A DNA stretch of 55,861 nucleotides, taken from the NCBI GenBank assembly GCA_012026675.1, contig VEPA01000247.1:1-55861 (forward strand). The letters are read 5' to 3'. Shown here one piece after another: positions 17,964 to 28,686 of the stretch (position 1 is its first letter; each line of letters begins with the position of its first letter). Under the pieces are notes generated by a model. It saw only the letters and a program-made list of their open reading frames with translations, did no database searches and was not told the origin of the DNA. The position numbers and the translations under genes are program-made. Source of the DNA: Betaproteobacteria bacterium. GTDB lineage: Bacteria; Pseudomonadota; Gammaproteobacteria; Burkholderiales; Rhodocyclaceae.

Positions 17964-18641
17964 TCAATCCGCCGTGCTCGACAGGCTATCGACCGGCAGA
18001 CCGGCGGCCTTCCACTCGGGGAAACCGTCTTCCATGCGGCGCGCGCGGTAGCCCTTTTCGCGCAGCATGGCCACGGCATCGACCGACAACAGGCAGTAGG
18101 GTCCGCGGCAGTAGGCGATGACTTCGCGCCCCTTGGGCAATTTCTTCAAGTGGCTGCTCAGGCTGTCGGAAGTGATGTTGATCGCGCCGGGGACGTGGCC
18201 GGCAGCATATTCCTCGGGCGGCCGCACGTCGAGGACGGTCACCAGGCCCTGGCGCACGCGTTCCAGCAGTTCCCCGGCCGGCACCGGCTCGAGGTCGTCG
18301 CGCGCCGTGATGTAGGTGCGCACCAGTTGCGAGACTTCGGCGAGGCGCGACTCGGCCACGGTGGACAGCGCGCCGAGCAGATCGACCACGTCCGGCCCGG
18401 CGACTTCGTAGAACACCCGCACCCCTTCCTTGCGCGCCCGCACCAAGCCCGCCTGACGCAGTTCCTGCAAGTGCTTGGAGGTATTGGCGACGGACAGGTG
18501 GGTCATGTTCGCCAGTTCGTCGACGCTGCGCGGCCCCTGCGCGACGAACTCCAGCAGTTCCAGCCGGTTGGCGTGGCCCAGCGCCTTGGCGACTCGCGCC
18601 AGCTGCACATATATGTCCTGCTTGAAATTTCCGGTTGACAT
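17964..18641 (-). CDS. ArsR-family regulator fused to a rhodanese domain
   Basis: A 225-residue fusion. Residues 10-110 are an ArsR winged helix (ALGHANRLELLEFVAQ, LSVANTSKHLQELRQAGLV). Residues about 120-218 are a rhodanese domain with LDVRPPEEYAAGHVPGA and the active loop CRGPYC. The only two cysteines in the whole protein are Cys178 and Cys183, both in that loop, so the ArsR part has no metal- or persulfide-sensing thiols of its own. The natural inference is that sulfane sulfur or oxidants are sensed at the rhodanese site. It is divergent from the redox operon at 18740 and upstream of ctaA. Confidence 0.93.
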   Translation of the reverse strand: MSTGNFKQDIYVQLARVAKALGHANRLELLEFVAQGPRSVDELANMTHLSVANTSKHLQELRQAGLVRARKEGVRVFYEVAGPDVVDLLGALSTVAESRLAEVSQLVRTYITARDDLEPVPAGELLERVRQGLVTVLDVRPPEEYAAGHVPGAINITSDSLSSHLKKLPKGREVIAYCRGPYCLLSVDAVAMLREKGYRARRMEDGFPEWKAAGLPVDSLSSTAD

Positions 18642-18659
18642 CGCCCGAGGCCTTCCTTA

Positions 18660-18683
18660 TTATTCAACCAATCAGTTGAATAA
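18660..18683. promoter_or_regulatory. Perfect 9-6-9 palindrome, probable ArsR-type operator
   Basis: TTATTCAAC at 18660-18668 and GTTGAATAA at 18675-18683 are perfect inverted repeats around CAATCA. The site lies in an AT-rich patch 18 bp upstream of the ArsR-rhodanese start and 56 bp upstream of the divergent operon start. ArsR proteins bind dyads of this ATTCAA-n-TTGAAT type, so autoregulation and control of both arms is likely. Confidence 0.75.
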
Positions 18684-18739
18684 TTGAATTGTAGTCGCAA
18701 GCCCTTGCAGGCACAAGCGACAGTGTAGGAGGAGTGCCG

Positions 18740-19603
18740 ATGACATTCAACGAATTTGCGCTGGCGAACGAACCGGCGATCCGCCTTGCGGCCTTCTTCG
18801 GCATCTTCACCTTGATGGCCGCCTGGGAGGTCGCGGCGCCGCGCCGTGCCCGCCTGCACAGCCGAACCGTGCGCTGGACCGCCAATCTTGGCCTGGTGGT
18901 GGTCAACACCGTACTGGTGCGCCTCGTCTTCCCTTTCGCCGCCGTAGCTTTCGCCACCCTGGCCGCGCAACGCGGCTGGGGCCTGCTCAACAACATCGAC
19001 CTGCCCGGCTGGCTGGCGCTGCTGCTGGCCGTGGTCGCCATGGATTTCGCCATCTGGCTGCAGCATGTCATGGTCCATGCGGTGCCGGTGCTGTGGCGCC
19101 TGCACCAGGTGCATCACGCCGATCCGGACTACGACGTCACCACCGGCGCGCGCTTCCATCCGCTCGAGATCATCCTTTCGATGCTGATCAAGTTCTCGGT
19201 CATCGCCGTGCTCGGCGCGCCAGCCGCCGCCGTACTGGTGTTCGAGGTCCTGCTCAATGCCACGGCGATGTTCAACCATGCCAACGTCAAGCTGCCGGGC
19301 GACGTCGATGCCGCCCTGCGCCTGTTGCTGGTGACGCCGGACATGCACCGGGTGCACCACTCGACGGATAACGCCGAGGCCAACAGCAATTTCGGCTTCA
19401 ACCTCTCGCTCTGGGACCGCCTGTTCGGTACCTACCACTACGCCGCGCGCCTGCCTCAGGAAAGCATGCACATCGGCGTCGCCGGCCTGACCGGCGATGC
19501 GCGCTGCGTGAGCCTGAGCGGGATGCTGGTGATTCCCTTCGTCAGTCCCGGCGAGGGTTATGCGATCGGCCACGGCCCCGAGGCGAGCCATGAAGCACGC
19601 TAG
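18740..19603 (+). CDS. Fatty acid hydroxylase/sterol desaturase superfamily protein
   Basis: A 287-residue membrane di-iron oxygenase-type protein. The eight-His pattern is visible: H109-x3-H113 (HVMVH), H122-x2-HH126 (HQVHH), and H203-x2-HH207 (HRVHH), between hydrophobic segments. The ATG at 18740 is preferred over GTG 18734 because AGGAGG ends 6 nt before it. It is the first gene of the plus-strand operon and overlaps the next gene by 14 bp. The substrate is unknown; its place in a sulfur/heme redox operon is unexpected. Confidence 0.88.
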   Translation: MTFNEFALANEPAIRLAAFFGIFTLMAAWEVAAPRRARLHSRTVRWTANLGLVVVNTVLVRLVFPFAAVAFATLAAQRGWGLLNNIDLPGWLALLLAVVAMDFAIWLQHVMVHAVPVLWRLHQVHHADPDYDVTTGARFHPLEIILSMLIKFSVIAVLGAPAAAVLVFEVLLNATAMFNHANVKLPGDVDAALRLLLVTPDMHRVHHSTDNAEANSNFGFNLSLWDRLFGTYHYAARLPQESMHIGVAGLTGDARCVSLSGMLVIPFVSPGEGYAIGHGPEASHEAR

Positions 19604-20609
19604 TCTGGTACGCGCCGCGCTGCTGGTCGCTCTGGTCGCGGGCCTGGCGCTGGCCTTCGCCAACCGCGAGCAGTTCTCGCAGGCGGCCCTGCAAGCCTGG
19701 CTGGCGTCGGCCGGCTGGTGGGCCCCGCTTCTGTTCATCGCCATTTACGCCGCCGGCACGGTGCTGTTCCTGCCCGGCTCGGTGCTGACCCTGGCCGCCG
19801 GCGCCCTCTTCGGCATCCTGCCCGGCGCGCTCTACAGCCTGACCGGCGCCACGCTGGGCGCGGTGCTGGCCTTCCTCGTCGCGCGCCATCTGGCCGGCGA
19901 CTGGGTGGCGCAGAAAACCGGCGGTCGCCTCAAGCAGCTGATCGAGGGCGTCGAGGCCGAGGGCTGGCGCTTCGTCGCCTTCGTCCGCCTGGTGCCGCTG
20001 TTTCCCTTCAACGTGGTGAATTACGCGTTGGGCCTGACGCGCATTCCGCTGGCCGCCTACGCGCTGGCCTCGGCAGTCTGCATGCTGCCCGGCGCGCTGG
20101 CCTATGCCTGGCTGGGCCATGCCGGGCGTGCGGCGCTGGCGGGTGACGCCAACGCGATCCGCAACGGCATGCTGGCATTGGCCGTCGCCGCTGCGCTGAT
20201 GTTCCTGCCGCGCCTGGTGCGCCAGTTCAAGGCCGGCCTCATGATCACGCCGGCAATGCTGCGCGCATTGCAGGCCGAGGGCGGCATTGCGGTCGTCGAC
20301 GTGCGCGAGGCCAAGGACTTCGACGGCGAGACCGGCCATGTCCCCGGCTCGCTGAACCTGCCGCTGAATCAGTTGCCGGCGCACATCGATGAACTCGCTT
20401 CCTGGCGCAAGGACGGAATCGTGCTGATCTGCCGCACCCAGGTGCGCTCGGGGCAGGCCGCGCGCCTGCGGGCGAAGCACGGCTTCACCGGGCTGCGCGT
20501 GGTGCGCGGCGGCATCCTCGCCTGGCGCGAACTGGGCTATCCCACGGAAGGCAGCACCGCGCCCGCCGCCCCCGTCGCGGAGGTCGCCCTTGGCCACAAC
20601 CACGCTTGA
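19590..20609 (+). CDS. TVP38/DedA-type membrane protein fused to a rhodanese domain
   Basis: A 339-residue fusion. Residues 1-215 form a TVP38/TMEM64 (SNARE-associated/VTT) domain with AAGTVLFLPGSVLTLAAGALFG cut by a re-entrant loop, and FVAFVRLVPLFPFNVVNYALG. Residues about 225-325 are a rhodanese domain with VVDVREAKDFDGETGHVPGS and catalytic Cys281 in LICRTQVRSG. It overlaps both neighbours (14 bp and 20 bp). The second rhodanese of the locus, here at the membrane, strengthens the link with sulfane-sulfur handling. Confidence 0.9.
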   Translation: MKHASLVRAALLVALVAGLALAFANREQFSQAALQAWLASAGWWAPLLFIAIYAAGTVLFLPGSVLTLAAGALFGILPGALYSLTGATLGAVLAFLVARHLAGDWVAQKTGGRLKQLIEGVEAEGWRFVAFVRLVPLFPFNVVNYALGLTRIPLAAYALASAVCMLPGALAYAWLGHAGRAALAGDANAIRNGMLALAVAAALMFLPRLVRQFKAGLMITPAMLRALQAEGGIAVVDVREAKDFDGETGHVPGSLNLPLNQLPAHIDELASWRKDGIVLICRTQVRSGQAARLRAKHGFTGLRVVRGGILAWRELGYPTEGSTAPAAPVAEVALGHNHA

Positions 20610-22962
20610 GGCCGTCGGCGGCTTTCCGCGCGCGCCGCATTGCGTCACGGCCGGCGAGCAGGACACCCTGCCCTCGCGCTACGGCTGGCCGGTCAAGCTG
20701 CTCTCGCTTCTTGCCTTCACCCTGGCCTTCGTCGGCTGGCTCAACGAGACCTGGCTGTTCCTGTTCGAGAGTCCGATCTGGCTCAACCGCTACACCGAGT
20801 ACGCGATCATCCTGGCCTTCGGCACCTGGCGCATCGTCGCCGAAAAGAACGCCTACACGCGGCGCCGCCTGATCATCCTGGTCGGCGTGGTGACCGGTCT
20901 GTGGTGGCTGGTGCCGTGGCTCAATCCCTTCTTCGAACCCTATGTCGGCTACCTCTGGTCGCAGCCGGTCTTCCCCTCGCTGCACACGCCGGGCACGCTG
21001 ACTTTCTTCCTGGTGCTGGCGGTCGTATTCCTCTTCGGGCGTCGCGTGATCTGCGGTTTCGGCTGCCCCTGCGTCGGCATCCGCGAGACCGTCGGCTTCC
21101 CTTTCCGCGAGAACTCGCCGCGCTCTGAGCTGGCGTGGAAGCTGCGTCACATCAAGTGGGTGTTCTTTGTCTACTACGTCGGCGTGCTGGTGGTGACCCT
21201 ATACCCGCCGAACTCCTGGACCATTTCCTTCGTCAGCGGCTTCTACGGCCTGGTGGCCGCCACCTACTTCGGCACCTTCTTCATTGCGCCGCTGGTCGGC
21301 AACCGCGCTTACTGCCGCTTCCTCTGCCCCTTCGGCGCCACCTTCGGCCTGCTCAACCACGCCGGTTTCTATGACGTGAAGATGGACACGAAGCGCTGCA
21401 TCGACTGTGGCCGCTGCGAGCAAGCCTGCGACATGGGGATTCCGGTGTGGAAGCAGGGCAAGGCGAACGGACGCGTCACCGGCCTCGAAGACTGCATGGG
21501 CTGCGCTCGCTGCGTGGTCTCCTGCCCCACCGACGCACTGGAAATCCGCGACGTGCGCAACTTCCTGCGCCCCGCCCTGCGCCAGGATGCGACCCACCTG
21601 CTGCGTCGCGTCGCCGCCCCCGAACTGCCGCGCATCGATGCCTGCGCCGAACGCCTGCCGCTGGCCGAGATCCAGACCCAGGCATCGCGCTGCCTCGATT
21701 GCGGCGAGCCGACCTGCCGCACCGCCTGCCCGTTGCACAACCGGATTCCGGAGTGGCTGATGCAGGCCGCCAAGGGCAGGATCGAAGCCGCCGCCGAGAT
21801 CATGGCCAGTACCAGCCCGATGCCCGAGCTCTGCGGCGCGCTGTGCCCGCAGGACCGCCTCTGCGAAGGCTCCTGCGCCCGCGTGCGCCAAGGCGACGCC
21901 GCGGTGGCCATCGGCGCCATCGAGCATGCGGTGACCGAAGAAGCGCTGGCGCGCGGCTGGCGCCCGCAGCTCGCTCCGGCCAAACGCCTGGACAAGGATG
22001 CCGCGGTGATCGGCGCCGGCCCGGCGGGGCTGGCCTTCGCCGAGGCGATGAACCGTGCCGGCTGGAACGTGACGGTGTATGACCGCGACACGCAGATCGG
22101 CGGCATGCTGTCGAGCGGCCTGCCACCCTTCCGCTTCGACAAGCGCGCGCTGGACCGGCGCCGCATCCTGCTGGAACAGGCCGGCGTGCGCTTCGAGCTG
22201 GGTGTCGAGGTCGATGCCGAGCGCTTCCTCAAACTGCGCGACGACAACGAGACGCTGTTCCTCGGCCTCGGCGCGCGCCAGGCGCGCGACGTTGCGCTGC
22301 CCGGACGCGAGTTGTTCGGCGTCGACGATGCGTTGAGCTATCTGGGCCGCATCAACCGGAACAAGGACGGCGCCGTTGCCGGCAGCCTCGCCGGCAAGCG
22401 CGTGCTGGTGCTGGGCGGCGGCGACACGGCGATGGATTGCGCCCGGGTAGCGCTGCGCGACGGAGCGACGAGCGTCGCCATCGCCTATCGCGGCACGGCC
22501 GAGAAGCTGCGCGCCAATCCGCACGAGCGCGTCGCGGCCGTCGAAGAAGGCGTGCGCTTCCTCTTCGAGCACACGCCGCTCGTCATCGAGGGCGAGGCCG
22601 CCGTGCGCTCGGTGGATTTCAAAGTCGGCGCCGGCGACACGGCGGTTTCGCAAACTATTCCCTGCGATGCGGTGATCCTCGCCTTCGGCCAGCAGCCGGC
22701 GGCGCCTTGCTGGCTCGAAGCCGGCGGCGTCGCCACCGAATTCGGCGCGATCAAGGTCGATGCCCACGGCCGGACCTCGCACCCGCGCATCTTCGCCGGC
22801 GGCGACGCCGTGCATGGCGCCGACCTGATCGTCACCGCCGCCGCCGCCGGCCGCCGCGCCGCGCGCACGGTGCTGGCACAACGGCGCCTGGCCGACTGGA
22901 AGACCTGGCGCGCCTGGCGCGCGGCGCCGCAGCCGCTGCTGGCGCCGAGGCTGGCGACATGA
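20590..22962 (+). CDS. Fusion of NapH-like membrane ferredoxin and GltD-like FAD/NAD(P) oxidoreductase
   Basis: A 790-residue fusion. Residues 30-260 hold several membrane helices and the NapH/CcoG-type motifs CGFGCPC (155-161) and CRFLCP (242-247). Two 4Fe-4S ferredoxin motifs follow (Cys270/273/276/280 and Cys302/305/308/312). Then comes the GltD-type cluster region (Cys368/371/376/380 and Cys415/419/425/429), the FAD motif VIGAGPAGLA (473-482), and the NAD(P) motif LGGGDTAMD near 610. It could move electrons between NAD(P)H and a membrane quinone or cytochrome chain. Residues 678-685, KVGAGDTA, coincide with a dispersed repeat. The start is TTG at 20590, overlapping the preceding gene by 20 bp. 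Confidence 0.88.
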   Translation: MATTTLEAVGGFPRAPHCVTAGEQDTLPSRYGWPVKLLSLLAFTLAFVGWLNETWLFLFESPIWLNRYTEYAIILAFGTWRIVAEKNAYTRRRLIILVGVVTGLWWLVPWLNPFFEPYVGYLWSQPVFPSLHTPGTLTFFLVLAVVFLFGRRVICGFGCPCVGIRETVGFPFRENSPRSELAWKLRHIKWVFFVYYVGVLVVTLYPPNSWTISFVSGFYGLVAATYFGTFFIAPLVGNRAYCRFLCPFGATFGLLNHAGFYDVKMDTKRCIDCGRCEQACDMGIPVWKQGKANGRVTGLEDCMGCARCVVSCPTDALEIRDVRNFLRPALRQDATHLLRRVAAPELPRIDACAERLPLAEIQTQASRCLDCGEPTCRTACPLHNRIPEWLMQAAKGRIEAAAEIMASTSPMPELCGALCPQDRLCEGSCARVRQGDAAVAIGAIEHAVTEEALARGWRPQLAPAKRLDKDAAVIGAGPAGLAFAEAMNRAGWNVTVYDRDTQIGGMLSSGLPPFRFDKRALDRRRILLEQAGVRFELGVEVDAERFLKLRDDNETLFLGLGARQARDVALPGRELFGVDDALSYLGRINRNKDGAVAGSLAGKRVLVLGGGDTAMDCARVALRDGATSVAIAYRGTAEKLRANPHERVAAVEEGVRFLFEHTPLVIEGEAAVRSVDFKVGAGDTAVSQTIPCDAVILAFGQQPAAPCWLEAGGVATEFGAIKVDAHGRTSHPRIFAGGDAVHGADLIVTAAAAGRRAARTVLAQRRLADWKTWRAWRAAPQPLLAPRLAT
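22621..22644 (+). repeat. Dispersed repeat copy inside the NapH/GltD fusion gene
   Basis: AAAGTCGGCGCCGGCGACAC then GGCG, read in frame as KVGAGDTA. This is the closest match to the intergenic consensus in the window and uses the same frame as the copy in the M48 peptidase gene. Confidence 0.72.
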
Positions 22963-23144
22963 ATCCGCTCGCGCTCCTGCTCGCAATGCTGGCGACTCCG
23001 GCCTGGGCCCACGTCCACGCGCTGAATTTTGACTTTGTCTGCACCACGGACGACTCGCTACCCGGTCTCACGCTGCTGCCCTTCCTGCTACTCGCCGGCA
23101 TCGGCATCACACGCGCCGTCGCCCGCCACCGCAAGGACAGGTGA
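22959..23144 (+). CDS. Small membrane protein of the redox operon
   Basis: A 61-residue protein that starts in ATGA overlap with the fusion gene and ends in ATGA overlap with the octaheme gene. Residues 1-17 look like a signal peptide ending AWA. A short periplasmic part with one Cys (FDFVCTTDDS) is followed by one helix (LTLLPFLLLAGIGITRAV) and a basic end RHRKDR. It may anchor or assemble the cytochromes. I do not recognise a family. Confidence 0.72.
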   Translation: MNPLALLLAMLATPAWAHVHALNFDFVCTTDDSLPGLTLLPFLLLAGIGITRAVARHRKDR

Positions 23145-24481
23145 TGCGCCCGCGCTGGCTGCTGATCCCGGTACTGCTCTCGCTTGCCGGCATCGCCGCC
23201 GGGATGGCGTATGTCGACTGGAGCAAGGGCGGCGCCGGCAGCGGCCTGTATTCGCGCGAGTGGCAGCCCGACCCGGTGCAGGGCTACTGGGACCCGGACC
23301 GTTTCTACCAGCCGACGAAGGCCGTCGAGGGCGTGTATCCCGCCGCCGAGTGCATCGCCTGCCACGAGGCGCTGACGCCGGGCATCGTCGCCGACTGGCG
23401 CGACAGCCGCCACAGCAAGCCGGCCAATCGCGCGCCGGTGGCCTGCCCCGACTGCCACGGCGCCGACCACCGGACGCTGCGCATGCCGACGCCCAAGGTC
23501 TGCACCGAATGCCACGCCGTGCAGCACGATGCCTTCCAGTCCGAAAAGCAGTACGGCTTTCCCAGCCACGTGCTGGCCATGGAACGCGCCACCGACAGCA
23601 AGCACTTCGTGGACAAGCCGAAGGGCGAAACCACGGCCTGCGTGCAATGCCACTCGGTGGCGACCAAGTGTGATTCCTGCCACACGCGCCACCGCTTCGA
23701 CGCCGCCGAGGCGCGCCGGCCCGAGGCCTGCACCACCTGCCACAGCGGCCCGCCGCATCCCGACGACGAGACCTACTACGGCTCGGCCCACGGCAAGCGC
23801 TACCTCGCCGACGCGCCGAAGACCGACTGGAGCAAGCCGCTCAAGAAGGGCAACTACGTGACGCCGACCTGCGCCTACTGCCACATGAGGAACGGCCAGC
23901 ACGTCGTGGCCGACAAGTCGATCTGGCAATTCGGCCTGCGCCAGGTGAATCCGAACACGGCAGAGAACAAGGTCAAGCGCGACCGCTGGGTCGAGGTCTG
24001 CATGGATTGCCATGACGAGGTGTTCTCGCGCCGGCAATTGACAAACTTGGACCATGAGCGCGCCGCGGCCTGGCAGGGGCTCAACCGCACGGAACGCCTG
24101 CTGCGCGAACTGAGGAGCGAGAAGGCCTTCTACCCGGCGGCCGGCGAACGCCCGCCCTACCCGACCGACTGGATGGACAGGATGTTCCCCAAGGAACGCA
24201 TCGGCTTCTTCGAAGGCCAGGCGTCGAGCTTCTACAACGTCTCGCCCATCGAGCGCGACTACTTCGAGATGTGGTACTTCGCCAACCTCGGCGCCTACAA
24301 GGCCGCGGCGCACGGCGCGCCGGCACTGGTGAAGGAAGGCCACGCCGCGCTGGCGGAGGCGGAAAAAACCATCGCCGACCAGGCGGCGCAACTGCGCGAC
24401 AAGGCGCGCGGTGCGCGGCCCGATCCGAAGGCGCTGTGGTTCGGCGGCGAATACACCACGCACAACAGGGAGCACAACTGA
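23144..24481 (+). CDS. Octaheme cytochrome c of the hydroxylamine oxidoreductase (HAO) family
   Basis: A 445-residue exported cytochrome with an N-terminal hydrophobic anchor (5-23) and eight CXXCH motifs at residues 70, 101, 120, 166, 176, 196, 243 and 286. The segment after heme motif 6, GPPHPDDETYYGSAHG, aligns with the HAO-family pattern GPDHPxxExYxxSxHG. The position I would align with the catalytic Asp is Pro here. The C-terminal SPIERDYFEMWYFANLGAYK is also HAO-like. It may oxidise or reduce a nitrogen or sulfur compound; true ammonia-oxidiser HAO is unlikely because its usual partners are absent. It sits in ATGA overlaps on both sides. Confidence 0.9.
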   Translation: MRPRWLLIPVLLSLAGIAAGMAYVDWSKGGAGSGLYSREWQPDPVQGYWDPDRFYQPTKAVEGVYPAAECIACHEALTPGIVADWRDSRHSKPANRAPVACPDCHGADHRTLRMPTPKVCTECHAVQHDAFQSEKQYGFPSHVLAMERATDSKHFVDKPKGETTACVQCHSVATKCDSCHTRHRFDAAEARRPEACTTCHSGPPHPDDETYYGSAHGKRYLADAPKTDWSKPLKKGNYVTPTCAYCHMRNGQHVVADKSIWQFGLRQVNPNTAENKVKRDRWVEVCMDCHDEVFSRRQLTNLDHERAAAWQGLNRTERLLRELRSEKAFYPAAGERPPYPTDWMDRMFPKERIGFFEGQASSFYNVSPIERDYFEMWYFANLGAYKAAAHGAPALVKEGHAALAEAEKTIADQAAQLRDKARGARPDPKALWFGGEYTTHNREHN

Positions 24482-25080
24482 TGCGCAAACTGATGCGCCA
24501 TCTGCTCTGGCTGCTCCTGCTGGCGGCGCTGCCCGCCCTGGCCGGCAAAAGCTGCGTGGCCTGCCACGCCGGCGCGGCGGAACGCAGTTGGGCGCTGTCC
24601 AAGCATGGCGTCATCGCCCGCATCGAGGCCGGGCGAGAACGCCGGCGCACGCCGGGCTGCGAGGCTTGCCATGCCGTCGAAGCCAAGACGCCGGCGCCGC
24701 AGCACTATGCAAAGAAGACTTCGCGCCAGGAAGCGCGCGAGCAGGCCAGCACCGGTTGCGGCGCCTGCCATTCGCCACGCTACGTGGCAGAACAACTTGC
24801 CGCCGCGCAACGCGGGCTGGCGCTGGGAGAAATGAAACGGCGCGAAGCCGAGGCGCTGGTCGAGTTCGCGCGCAAGGAAATGAACGCGACGGAACTGGCG
24901 CAGATCGAGAAACTATTCGCCACGCTGCGCGACGAGAACCTGCGCGACCTGCGCCTCGGTCTCGCCCACCAGTCGCCCGACTACCAGTGGTGGCTGGGAC
25001 AGGCCGCACTCGACGGCAGCCTGCTGCGCATCAAGGCTGCGCTGGGCGAAGCGCGACGCAGCCGACTGGCTGCGCGCTAA
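24481..25080 (+). CDS. Triheme cytochrome c resembling the C-terminal half of HAO
   Basis: A 199-residue exported protein, signal peptide about 1-21 (cut after ALAG or ALA), with CXXCH at residues 25, 60 and 93. The order of features mirrors the end of the HAO family: a heme motif followed by ERSWALSKHG (as after heme 6), a second heme, a third heme in CGACHSPRYVAEQL (as at heme 8), then a helical tail with GLAHQSPDYQWWLG. It looks like an HAO homologue reduced to hemes 6-8. It starts in ATGA overlap with the octaheme gene and is probably its partner. Confidence 0.82.
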   Translation: MRKLMRHLLWLLLLAALPALAGKSCVACHAGAAERSWALSKHGVIARIEAGRERRRTPGCEACHAVEAKTPAPQHYAKKTSRQEAREQASTGCGACHSPRYVAEQLAAAQRGLALGEMKRREAEALVEFARKEMNATELAQIEKLFATLRDENLRDLRLGLAHQSPDYQWWLGQAALDGSLLRIKAALGEARRSRLAAR

Positions 25081-25114
25081 GGATTCACAATATATTTATC
25101 AAAGGGAGATCAGC

Positions 25115-25462
25115 ATGAAAACCTTGTTCATACTCAACGACGCACCCTATGGCACGGAACGCAGCTACAACGGCCTGCGCCTGGCCAAGGCCGTGTCCAA
25201 ACTTGCCGGCCAGCAGGTTCAGCTGTTCCTGATGGGCGACGCCGTGGCCTGCGCCAAGGACGGCCAGAAGCTTCCGGACGGCTACTACAATGCCGGCGAC
25301 ATGGTGAAGATGGTCGCCGCCGTCGGCGAGGTCGGCCTCTGCGGCACCTGCATGAACGCACGCGGCCTGCAGGATGGCGAAATGGTGACTGGCGCCCTGC
25401 GCAAGACCCTGGCCGACCTAGCGGCCTGGACCGCCGCAGCAGACAAGGTCCTGGTGTTCTGA
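25115..25462 (+). CDS. DsrE-like sulfur-relay protein
   Basis: A 115-residue cytosolic protein of the DsrE/DsrF-like fold. The candidate sulfur-carrying Cys are Cys46 (GDAVACAKDG) and the pair Cys76/Cys79 (LCGTCMNARG), the latter matching the conserved Cys of the family. AAGGGAGA precedes the ATG. It lies 34 bp after the triheme gene on the same strand, across an AT-rich patch, so it may be read from the operon or from its own promoter. With the two rhodaneses it makes a sulfane-sulfur theme. Confidence 0.88.
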   Translation: MKTLFILNDAPYGTERSYNGLRLAKAVSKLAGQQVQLFLMGDAVACAKDGQKLPDGYYNAGDMVKMVAAVGEVGLCGTCMNARGLQDGEMVTGALRKTLADLAAWTAAADKVLVF

Positions 25463-27493: not shown

Positions 27494-27687
27494 GTCTTTT
27501 TTCCTTGGTCGCCAGCCAGTCTTACTCCTGGGCCAATGCTAGCCGGCTGGTCTGGCGACAACAATTGCGGACATCCACTACGGGGCATGCCAAAATCCGC
27601 CGGACGATCGCCTTGCCTGATGCCGGTACAAACTGTAAGCAGTTGCCGGCCGGTCCGACATACAGGGAAATCCACCGGAGAATTCCG

Positions 27688-28686
27688 ATGCATGCCACGC
27701 TGCACCTGCTGACCCATACCGACTTTCCCGCCTTGACGCGGCGCGCCGTGGAATCCCTGCAACTCAACCTCGGCTACCGCTGCAACCAGAGTTGCCTGCA
27801 CTGCCACGTCAATGCCGGGCCGAAGCGTACGGAAGAAATGACGGCCGAGACGATCGATGCGGTGCTCGATTTCGTCGCGGCGAGTCCGGGAATTACCACC
27901 ATCGACCTGACCGGCGGCGCACCCGAACTCAATCCGCAGTTTCGGCGCATGGTGGTTGCCGCGCGCGCGCGCGGCCTGCGCGTGATCGACCGCTGCAACC
28001 TGACCATTCTGGAAGAGCCGGGCTGCGAGGACATGGCGGCGTTCCTCGCCGCCCACCGAGTGGAGATCGTCGCCTCGCTGCCCTGCTACCTGGAGGAAAA
28101 CGTCGACCAGCAGCGCGGCAATGGGGTATTCGCGGCCAGCCTGCGCGGCCTGCAACAACTCAACGCGCTGGGCTATGGCCGTGAAGGCAGCGGCCTCAGC
28201 CTCAACCTGGTCTACAACCCGCAGGGACCCCGCCTGCCGCCGCCACAGGCGGCGCTACAGGCCGCCTACAAGCAGCACCTTGGCGAAAAATACGGTATCG
28301 CGTTCAACGAGTTGTTCACCCTGGCCAACATGCCGATCCAGCGCTTCGGCAGCACGCTGATTTCCAGGGGCCAGTTCAACGCCTACATGAGCACCCTGCG
28401 CGCCGCCCATCGCGACGACAATCTGCCGCACGTCATGTGCCGCAGCCTGATCAGCGTCGACTGGCAGGGCTACCTTTACGACTGCGACTTCAACCAGCAA
28501 CTCGGTTTGGCCATCGCCGATTCGCGCGGCGGCCGCCTGCACATCAGCCGGGCCAGCGCCGCCGCGCTTGAAGAAAACGCTATCCGGATCGCCGACCACT
28601 GCTATGGCTGCACCGCCGGCCAGGGTTCGAGTTGCAGCGGCGCGCTGGGGCACGAAACCGCCGCGGCGCCAAGTTGCGGGACCTGA
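27688..28686 (+). CDS. arsS: ArsS-type radical SAM protein
   Basis: A 332-residue radical SAM enzyme of the arsenosugar biosynthesis ArsS-like family (TIGR04167). The cluster motif is Cys32-x3-Cys36-x2-Cys39 (CNQSCLHCH). Family segments include TGGAPELNPQFRRMV, CNLTILEEPGCEDMAAFL, VASLPCYLEENVDQQRGNG, the stretch MCRSLISVDWQGYLYDCDFN, and the Cys-rich end with Cys305, Cys308 and Cys316. GGAG precedes the ATG at 27688. No arsM or arsenic-resistance genes are in the window, so the substrate is unsure. The HAD gene follows after 5 bp. Confidence 0.88.
   Translation: MHATLHLLTHTDFPALTRRAVESLQLNLGYRCNQSCLHCHVNAGPKRTEEMTAETIDAVLDFVAASPGITTIDLTGGAPELNPQFRRMVVAARARGLRVIDRCNLTILEEPGCEDMAAFLAAHRVEIVASLPCYLEENVDQQRGNGVFAASLRGLQQLNALGYGREGSGLSLNLVYNPQGPRLPPPQAALQAAYKQHLGEKYGIAFNELFTLANMPIQRFGSTLISRGQFNAYMSTLRAAHRDDNLPHVMCRSLISVDWQGYLYDCDFNQQLGLAIADSRGGRLHISRASAAALEENAIRIADHCYGCTAGQGSSCSGALGHETAAAPSCGT

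Follow-up and report, generated by a model that had tools for sequence, protein, structure and literature searches.

In trimers of cytochromes of the hydroxylamine oxidoreductase (HAO) family, a loop of one subunit reaches the catalytic heme of its neighbor. We describe here a gene set in which that loop and that heme appear to be divided between two genes. It lies in a stretch of DNA from a betaproteobacterium of the Rhodocyclaceae (assembly GCA_012026675.1, contig VEPA01000247.1, positions 1 to 55,861), which we call the window; its 55,861 nucleotides are part of a 3.58-Mb assembly that is 86% complete and has Sulfuritalea and Rhodocyclales genomes as its nearest relatives. The set encodes an HAO-type octaheme cytochrome, a heme-poor partner, a fusion of a NapH-type membrane ferredoxin with a GltD-like flavoprotein and, divergently, an ArsR-rhodanese regulator. 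It is real, conserved and apparently undescribed, and it falls within the HAO family, not being of a new kind.

Several described proteins invite comparison. KsHAOr of Kuenenia (kustc0458, encoded with kustc0457; PDB 6h5l) is likewise an HAO octaheme without the tyrosine cross-link and with a co-encoded redox partner (PMC12485887). Loop and Asp both lie in KsHAOr's own chain, whereas here the loop is in the partner chain and Asp is replaced by Pro. The KsHAOr partner is reportedly a diheme protein and no HAO paralog, and we know of no NapH-GltD or sulfur genes that go with that system. With the HAO of N. europaea (NeHAO; 1fgj and 4fas), KsHOX (4n4j) and hydrazine dehydrogenase (HDH; 6hif), our octaheme shares by sequence the eight hemes, the ligand pattern and the catalytic His, but it has Pro for Asp267, no cross-link Tyr and a NapH-type electron route. 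The epsilon-Hao of Campylobacterota resembles it as a reducing HAO type; in epsilon-Hao the loop is in the same chain, and the genetic setting is different. Trp at the Tyr position is cited as important in Hao (PMC8940962). Sulfur reduction has been proposed, speculatively, for the clade I HAO-family proteins of Tharpellota, whose hosts belong, unlike ours, to the Desulfobacterota and for which the available part of the source describes no partner paralog or NapH-GltD protein (PMC9213671). The orange octaheme BOGUAY_0691 of Beggiatoaceae, compared by description only, is similar in being an octaheme of a sulfur oxidizer with HAO-like activities and differs in having napAB upstream (PMC6449678).

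An earlier note on this DNA, made from the sequence alone, knew of no described pathway with this set, and no description of it was found among the papers listed in the literature searches, most subscription papers being outside that coverage. Two of its components do have counterparts elsewhere. SqrR and BigR are ArsR-type repressors that respond to sulfane sulfur through an ArsR domain with two reactive Cys. The window regulator is of ArsR type too, with a presumed response to sulfane sulfur, but it has no Cys in its DNA-binding domain, both being in the attached rhodanese. DsrL is a GltD-like iron-sulfur flavoprotein and the NapH of NapGH a membrane ferredoxin; unlike these, the GltD and NapH parts are fused in one chain here.

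Results

A separate clade of HAO-family octahemes

Genes were called from open reading frames (ORFs) and from Pfam and NCBIfam family scans, and all genes named in the earlier note were recovered at or near the places it gave. The octaheme gene (23144 to 24481, forward strand) encodes eight CxxCH motifs and matches PF13447 at 121 bits, against a cut-off of 21.9. Profile matches in the PDB range from 3e-88 (KsHOX) to 2e-20 and include KsHAOr (4e-80), Brocadia HAO, HDH and N. europaea HAO. Across an alignment of 34 octahemes the eight CxxCH motifs are kept, H90, H109, H142, H183, H205, H216 and H390 are invariant, and H253 is found in at least 90% of the rows. In the PDB profile alignments H205 falls on His268 of NeHAO, and the other listed His fall on heme ligands, which we take to be the distal ligands in HAO.

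Two residues that mark oxidative HAO and HDH, and that in NeHAO (Asp267 and Tyr467) are catalytic, are both missing from the octaheme. The Asp267 position, at which the numbering of Asp267 and His268 agrees with the 1fgj alignment, corresponds to Pro204 in the window; it is Pro in 34/34 octahemes, in the motif CHSGPPHPD, and Asp in all 20 rows of an HAO-type control set (18 of them distinct) and in all five PDB sequences aligned. The site of the cross-link Tyr (NeHAO 467) was set by the His+8 spacing, as in KsHOX and HDH, and there none of the 34 octahemes has Tyr or Trp, the residues being variable. The whole segment that matches the HAO loop is variable, with a mean entropy of 2.00 versus 1.07 elsewhere. 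In a tree of 37 rows, made up of 17 of the 34 octahemes and 20 other HAO-type rows and drawn without anammox sequences, the 17 octahemes form one group (support 100/99). By sequence, then, the octaheme is an HAO-family protein of a separate clade.

A truncated paralog that carries the loop

The next gene (24481 to 25080, forward strand) had been described in the earlier note as a triheme protein. Three CxxCH motifs are indeed found in the window, but most of the relatives listed have five. Judged by its sequence and model, the protein is an HAO paralog in truncated form, and the active-site loop (HQSPDYQWWLGQAALDG) is part of it. This loop-bearing pseudo-HAO, which the earlier note missed, is to us the most informative feature of the locus. 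Its PF13447 score of 21.1 bits lies just under the cut-off, and the pentahemes of loci L043 and L099 score 58.5 and 41.7 bits. A profile of the partner family finds as its best PDB matches the same HAO proteins as the octaheme does (1e-41). Of the nine best Foldseek matches to an AF2 model of the window partner (mean pLDDT 86), eight are HAO or HDH chains and one is the multiheme 4qo5; TMq is 0.63-0.71 and E runs from 4e-4 to 1e-2. By motif order, we read the partner as keeping the equivalents of hemes 6-8, plus those of hemes 1-2 in the pentahemes, and as lacking catalytic heme 4.

What the partner has conserved above all is the loop. In an alignment of 30 partners, with gaps counted as a symbol in the entropies, residues 160-181 hold 13 of the 30 invariant columns, and mean entropy is 0.41 over 160-184 versus 1.92 elsewhere. 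The most conserved stretch reads HQSPDYQWW[H/L/Y/F]G[Q/H][P/A]ALDG; departures from it are few and fall on S, Y and Q. Trp171, at His+8 and hence at the Tyr site, is invariant in 30/30 partners; KsHAOr has Trp at the identical His spacing, and the window loop WWHGQPA resembles its WWWGQAP. Because the octaheme has lost the loop while the partner keeps it, the active site would be completed in trans, and the two genes probably encode a heteromeric enzyme in which a pseudo-enzyme supplies the loop.

Conservation of the gene set

A scan of the genome collection with the octaheme as query gave 96 relatives, and 80 loci were kept; they span Beta-, Gamma- and Alphaproteobacteria, Magnetococcales and Nitrospinota-labelled records. 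Neighbors were counted where flanks sufficed, that is, more than 1.5 kb downstream (n=65), more than 1.5 kb upstream (n=71) or more than 7 kb upstream (n=47), with n=38 for downstream neighbors. The tri- or pentaheme partner follows the octaheme in 65/65 loci and a NapH-type gene precedes it in 69/71, the two misses (L021 and L034) being contigs that start within the GltD part of the fusion. An even sample of the class, in which 369 of 400 genomes drawn were searched, gave 39 matching genomes at 1e-20. We assigned 17 of these to the clade (13 full-length octahemes and 4 fragments, each accompanied on its contig by NapH-GltD); the remaining 22 have other HAO types. When the 12 best candidates per genome were scored, the fusion was present in 17/17 carriers versus 0/63 of the dsrA genomes without the octaheme (63 of 103 such genomes were searched), the latter having GltD-type matches at most; the match is partial in G432 and G464, and in G346 and G533 a single open frame holds it as two pieces around an inserted stretch. 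Conservation of the core is far beyond chance and the gene set is real. Octaheme, multiheme partner and fusion do occur together as the earlier note supposed, and the failure of joint conservation that it named as a refutation is not what the genomes show. Two single-contig genomes (G321 and G510) hold the whole cluster. In a third, G233, the octaheme gene (L103, 8500-10020) is apparently broken, with several frames and one stop, and the NapH-GltD and pentaheme genes still match well.

Within the window's own family, the octaheme query matches 5/150 genomes at 1e-20, four of them at just 36-38% identity, and the octaheme was not found in the three congeners searched. In those four genomes (L004-L007, L116, L117) the HAO-type genes are of the ordinary kind and fall outside this clade.

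The NapH-GltD fusion and the genes around it

The fusion (20590 to 22962, forward strand, 790 aa, likely with a TTG start) carries CX3CXC and CX3CP motifs, two ferredoxin motifs and eight Fer4_20-type cysteines, invariant in 51/51 aligned NapH-GltD proteins. Its GltD part matches Fer4_20 (102.2 bits), and the flavin and NAD(P) domains there match Pyr_redox_2 (103.2 bits). The NapH part reaches 67.8 bits (E 1e-18) against TIGR02163, under the curated cut-off of 213, and is therefore a distant NapH. Cysteines and domains together favor a route by which electrons of NAD(P)H cross the membrane and reach the periplasmic hemes. GltD is present at 38/47 loci; the other nine are alphaproteobacterial, Magnetococcales and Nitrospinota-labelled, and NapH is unfused there, so these loci would need another donor, perhaps quinol. 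NapH and GltD parts stand in two frames in some Thiodiazotropha (G549, also L070, and L020), where the fusion may be split. Long ORFs had suggested a NapH-octaheme fusion in Magnetococcales, which was rejected when the genes proved to be in different frames.

Between fusion and octaheme the window has a gene for a 61-aa peptide (22959 to 23144, forward strand; ORF call) with a signal and a transmembrane segment (TM) by eye and with no Pfam or NCBIfam family match. At 21/47 loci a mono- or diheme protein, with a TM at its C terminus (again by eye), stands between NapH-GltD and octaheme, and in many gammaproteobacteria it occupies the place of this heme-less peptide; the representative tried (L029, 9400-9951, c4 group) has no Pfam or NCBIfam match.

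Upstream lie genes for a membrane di-iron protein of the fatty-acid-hydroxylase type (18740 to 19603, forward strand; PF04116, 104.6 bits) and a VTT/TVP38 membrane protein fused to a rhodanese (19590 to 20609, forward strand; 89.5 and 58.7 bits). For these and for the regulator, neighbors were counted twice and the stricter count is given: the hydroxylase is upstream of the octaheme at 35/47 loci, and the TVP38 protein is upstream and on the same strand at 30/47. Adjacent genes overlap from the hydroxylase to the triheme gene (18740 to 25080, with ATGA and TGATG among the junctions), as the earlier note had it, and since they overlap they are likely to be co-transcribed. A DsrE/DsrF-like gene (25115 to 25462, forward strand; 77.9 bits) follows the triheme gene after 34 bases. 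The earlier note had counted it in the set, yet it is an optional member: a DsrE-type gene is upstream at 22/47 loci and downstream at 3/38; TauE is found at 6/47.

Heme A synthase, which the note had also included, does not belong to the conserved set: the COX15/CtaA-like gene (17959 to 16973, reverse strand; 94.3 bits) has a counterpart at 2/47 loci and was set aside as a passenger. It begins 4 bases behind the regulator gene; in L010 and L014 the two are separated by a DsrE gene. Outside the core, 36 neighbor clusters recur and 12 are annotated. Besides sulfur-type genes these comprise arsenosugar genes, genes for a methyltransferase and a glycosyltransferase, and proteins that matched nothing; one cluster of 3 loci is a SoxH-like hydrolase (130.5 bits, cut-off 280). 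Among the 12 there is no nitrogen gene and no porin or outer-membrane cytochrome. The arsenosugar radical SAM protein ArsS (window 27598-28686; TIGR04167, 451 bits, cut-off 300) recurs at 10/38 loci and ArsM at 9/38, and a TIGR04283 glycosyltransferase also recurs beside the cluster. An arsenic function was considered and rejected, on these frequencies and on the lack of Cys in the regulator's DNA-binding domain.

Regulator and operator

The ArsR-rhodanese regulator (18641 to 17964, reverse strand, 225 aa; HTH_5 46.7 bits, Rhodanese 65 bits) is encoded full length at 38/47 loci (35 divergent, 3 on the same strand), partially at 3 and not at all at 6. It has only two Cys, C178 and C183, both in the rhodanese loop CRGPYC and both invariant in 48/48 aligned rows, the window's included; the Cys pair of SqrR and BigR in the ArsR domain is missing from it. 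With its only Cys invariant in that loop, it is a fair inference that the rhodanese reads a sulfane-sulfur signal. At L060 (3416-3640) and L068 (3402-3602) the divergent regulator matches the ArsR part alone and is apparently without a rhodanese.

Between the divergent genes lies a predicted operator palindrome, TTCAA-N8-TTGAA (18663 to 18680; TTCAACCAATCAGTTGAA), the sole site of this type in the window, with 0 in 100 shuffles. The palindrome recurs in 30/44 relatives' upstream regions and is absent from 12/44 even with one mismatch. Its spacing is 8 in all 31 matches, although 4-12 was allowed; the background is 299/20000 random segments, real sites included, and 64/22000 shuffles. The window's own genome has 5 operator-like sites; on our reading two are upstream of starts (the window's and one before a TetR-like gene) and three are inside reading frames. 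From these positions a wider regulon was rejected, and the predicted operator looks local. The divergent ArsR-rhodanese control proposed in the earlier note is supported by a conserved operator and an invariant Cys pair.

Discussion

The reading that we favor, at somewhat less than an even chance, is that of an NAD(P)H-fed, two-subunit periplasmic reductase that is induced by sulfane sulfur and acts most likely on oxidized sulfur; that the subunits form a complex, which way it works, on what substrate and how the signal is sensed are what we infer. The repressor would bind TTCAA-N8-TTGAA and be released once the CX4C loop of its rhodanese takes up sulfane sulfur. Electrons would pass from NAD(P)H to the GltD-type flavoprotein with two [4Fe-4S] clusters, to the NapH-type membrane ferredoxin and, by way of the small anchor or cytochrome, to the heme-poor pseudo-HAO subunit and then the octaheme. 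There, at catalytic heme 4, which would be five-coordinate and would receive from the partner a loop with Trp instead of Tyr, like that of nitrite-reducing KsHAOr, periplasmic oxidized sulfur (stored S0, polysulfide or related sulfane) would be reduced to sulfide, either to dispose of electrons or to mobilize the sulfur. The TVP38-rhodanese, and DsrE and TauE where present, would handle sulfur.

We settle on the reductive direction because the Tyr is absent, because a Trp loop of the KsHAOr type is present and because electrons would run downhill from NAD(P)H to c-hemes. Sulfur is favored as the substrate because rhodaneses are found in the regulator and the TVP38 protein and DsrE in the window, because some relatives have TauE or a SoxH-like hydrolase and because the Asp common to HAOs is gone.

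The hosts are sulfur oxidizers, often with nitrate reductase, and by record title they include Sulfuritalea, Thiobacillus, lucinid and tubeworm symbionts, Thiogranum, Sulfuricaulis and Magnetococcales. In 51 cluster genomes, the window's own and 50 hand-picked from the 80 loci, dsrA was found in 44 (41 above the curated cut-off), which upholds the sulfur link drawn in the earlier note, napA in 38 and narG in 12. The class sample of 369 contains the octaheme in 17 genomes, dsrA in 119, soxB in 150 and napA in 74. Here dsrA is present in 16/17 carriers versus 103/352 other genomes (Fisher p 8e-8) and soxB in 14/17 (p 4e-4); among the dsrA-positive genomes, carriers and others do not differ in soxB (p 0.9).

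Several points weigh against a sulfur reductase. In the parts of the literature covered, HAO-family proteins with a demonstrated reaction all act on nitrogen compounds. In the class sample, napA is found in 13/17 carriers versus 61/352 others (p 4e-7) and, within dsrA-positive genomes, in 12/16 versus 39/103 (p 0.006), whereas dsrA within soxB-positive genomes is only weakly enriched (13/14 versus 92/136, p 0.04; p 0.10 with the 13 full-length carriers alone); all these Fisher tests treat genomes as independent and ignore shared ancestry, and an absence carries less weight than a presence in these searches, which scored the best 2-4 candidates of each genome. Just 16 of the 119 dsrA-positive genomes have the octaheme, so sulfur oxidation does not generally involve it. 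Neither DsrE nor TauE is a constant member, and NAD(P)H is not a universal donor, GltD being missing at nine loci. In two of the 34 octahemes a Trp directly follows the Tyr site, and the structure model of the octaheme was too poor to use (pLDDT 63.6).

Distribution alone does not decide between a sulfur and a nitrogen substrate, and an N-oxide is a close rival, nearly as likely as sulfur and, taken by itself, possible but doubtful. The same two-subunit, NapH-fed reductase would then act on nitrite, NO or hydroxylamine, like KsHAOr and epsilon-Hao, and sulfane sulfur would merely signal sulfidic, nitrate-reducing conditions. Membership in the HAO family, a partner loop with Trp as in KsHAOr and the frequency of napA and narG, with napA enriched even within dsrA-positive genomes, all fit this, and KsHAOr makes NO from nitrite (PMC12485887). 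Against an N-oxide stand the replacement of Asp267 by Pro in every octaheme where the control rows all keep Asp, the sulfur-type regulator, the lack of a nitrogen gene among the annotated recurrent neighbors, and the 4/17 carriers in which no napA match was found among the candidates scored.

It is unlikely that octaheme and partner are no enzyme and form an electron conduit to some other acceptor, an extracellular one, for example. Many hemes, the loss of two catalytic HAO residues and a heme-poor partner would suit a wire; the equivalent of His268 and the aligned heme-ligand His are nevertheless kept, a loop that is the most conserved part of the partner would be odd in a mere wire, and the annotated neighbors include neither porin nor outer-membrane cytochrome. 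A reverse path, by which the octaheme oxidizes a low-potential sulfur compound and GltD reduces NAD(P)+, feeding an autotroph from periplasmic sulfur, seems more improbable still. A GltD-type flavoprotein fused to a membrane ferredoxin is what such a path would use, DsrL, the GltD-like protein of sulfur oxidizers, couples sulfur oxidation to NAD+, and dsr or sox genes were found in most of the hosts tested; set against this are the missing cross-link Tyr, a loop Trp as in the reducing KsHAOr, the loci that lack GltD and the need for a donor of very low potential. That the octaheme is an ordinary HAO or HDH in an unusual neighborhood is highly improbable, since its NCBIfam hydrazine_HDH match (NF052343, 205.6 bits) is far under the curated cut-off of 900, the Tyr is missing, Asp has become Pro and the clade is separate.

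The interpretation in the earlier note is partly supported overall. The sulfane-sulfur-induced reductase that we favor has a broader form, which we hold with less confidence: that of a sulfur-cycle enzyme of the HAO family, working in either direction, whose active site comes from two genes, a loop-less octaheme and a dead HAO paralog, which is wired to the NAD(P)H pool by NapH-GltD and which is controlled by a rhodanese-based sulfane-sulfur switch.

With an HAO-family enzyme in a conserved sulfur-type operon of sulfur oxidizers, carried by the hosts listed above, whether the family works outside the nitrogen cycle becomes directly testable. If the active site is indeed shared by two gene products, the system also illustrates a way in which a heteromer can arise from a homotrimeric multiheme enzyme. 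Sulfur oxidizers reduce stored sulfur under anoxia, and we know of no agreed enzyme for this reaction; the octaheme system is a candidate for it.

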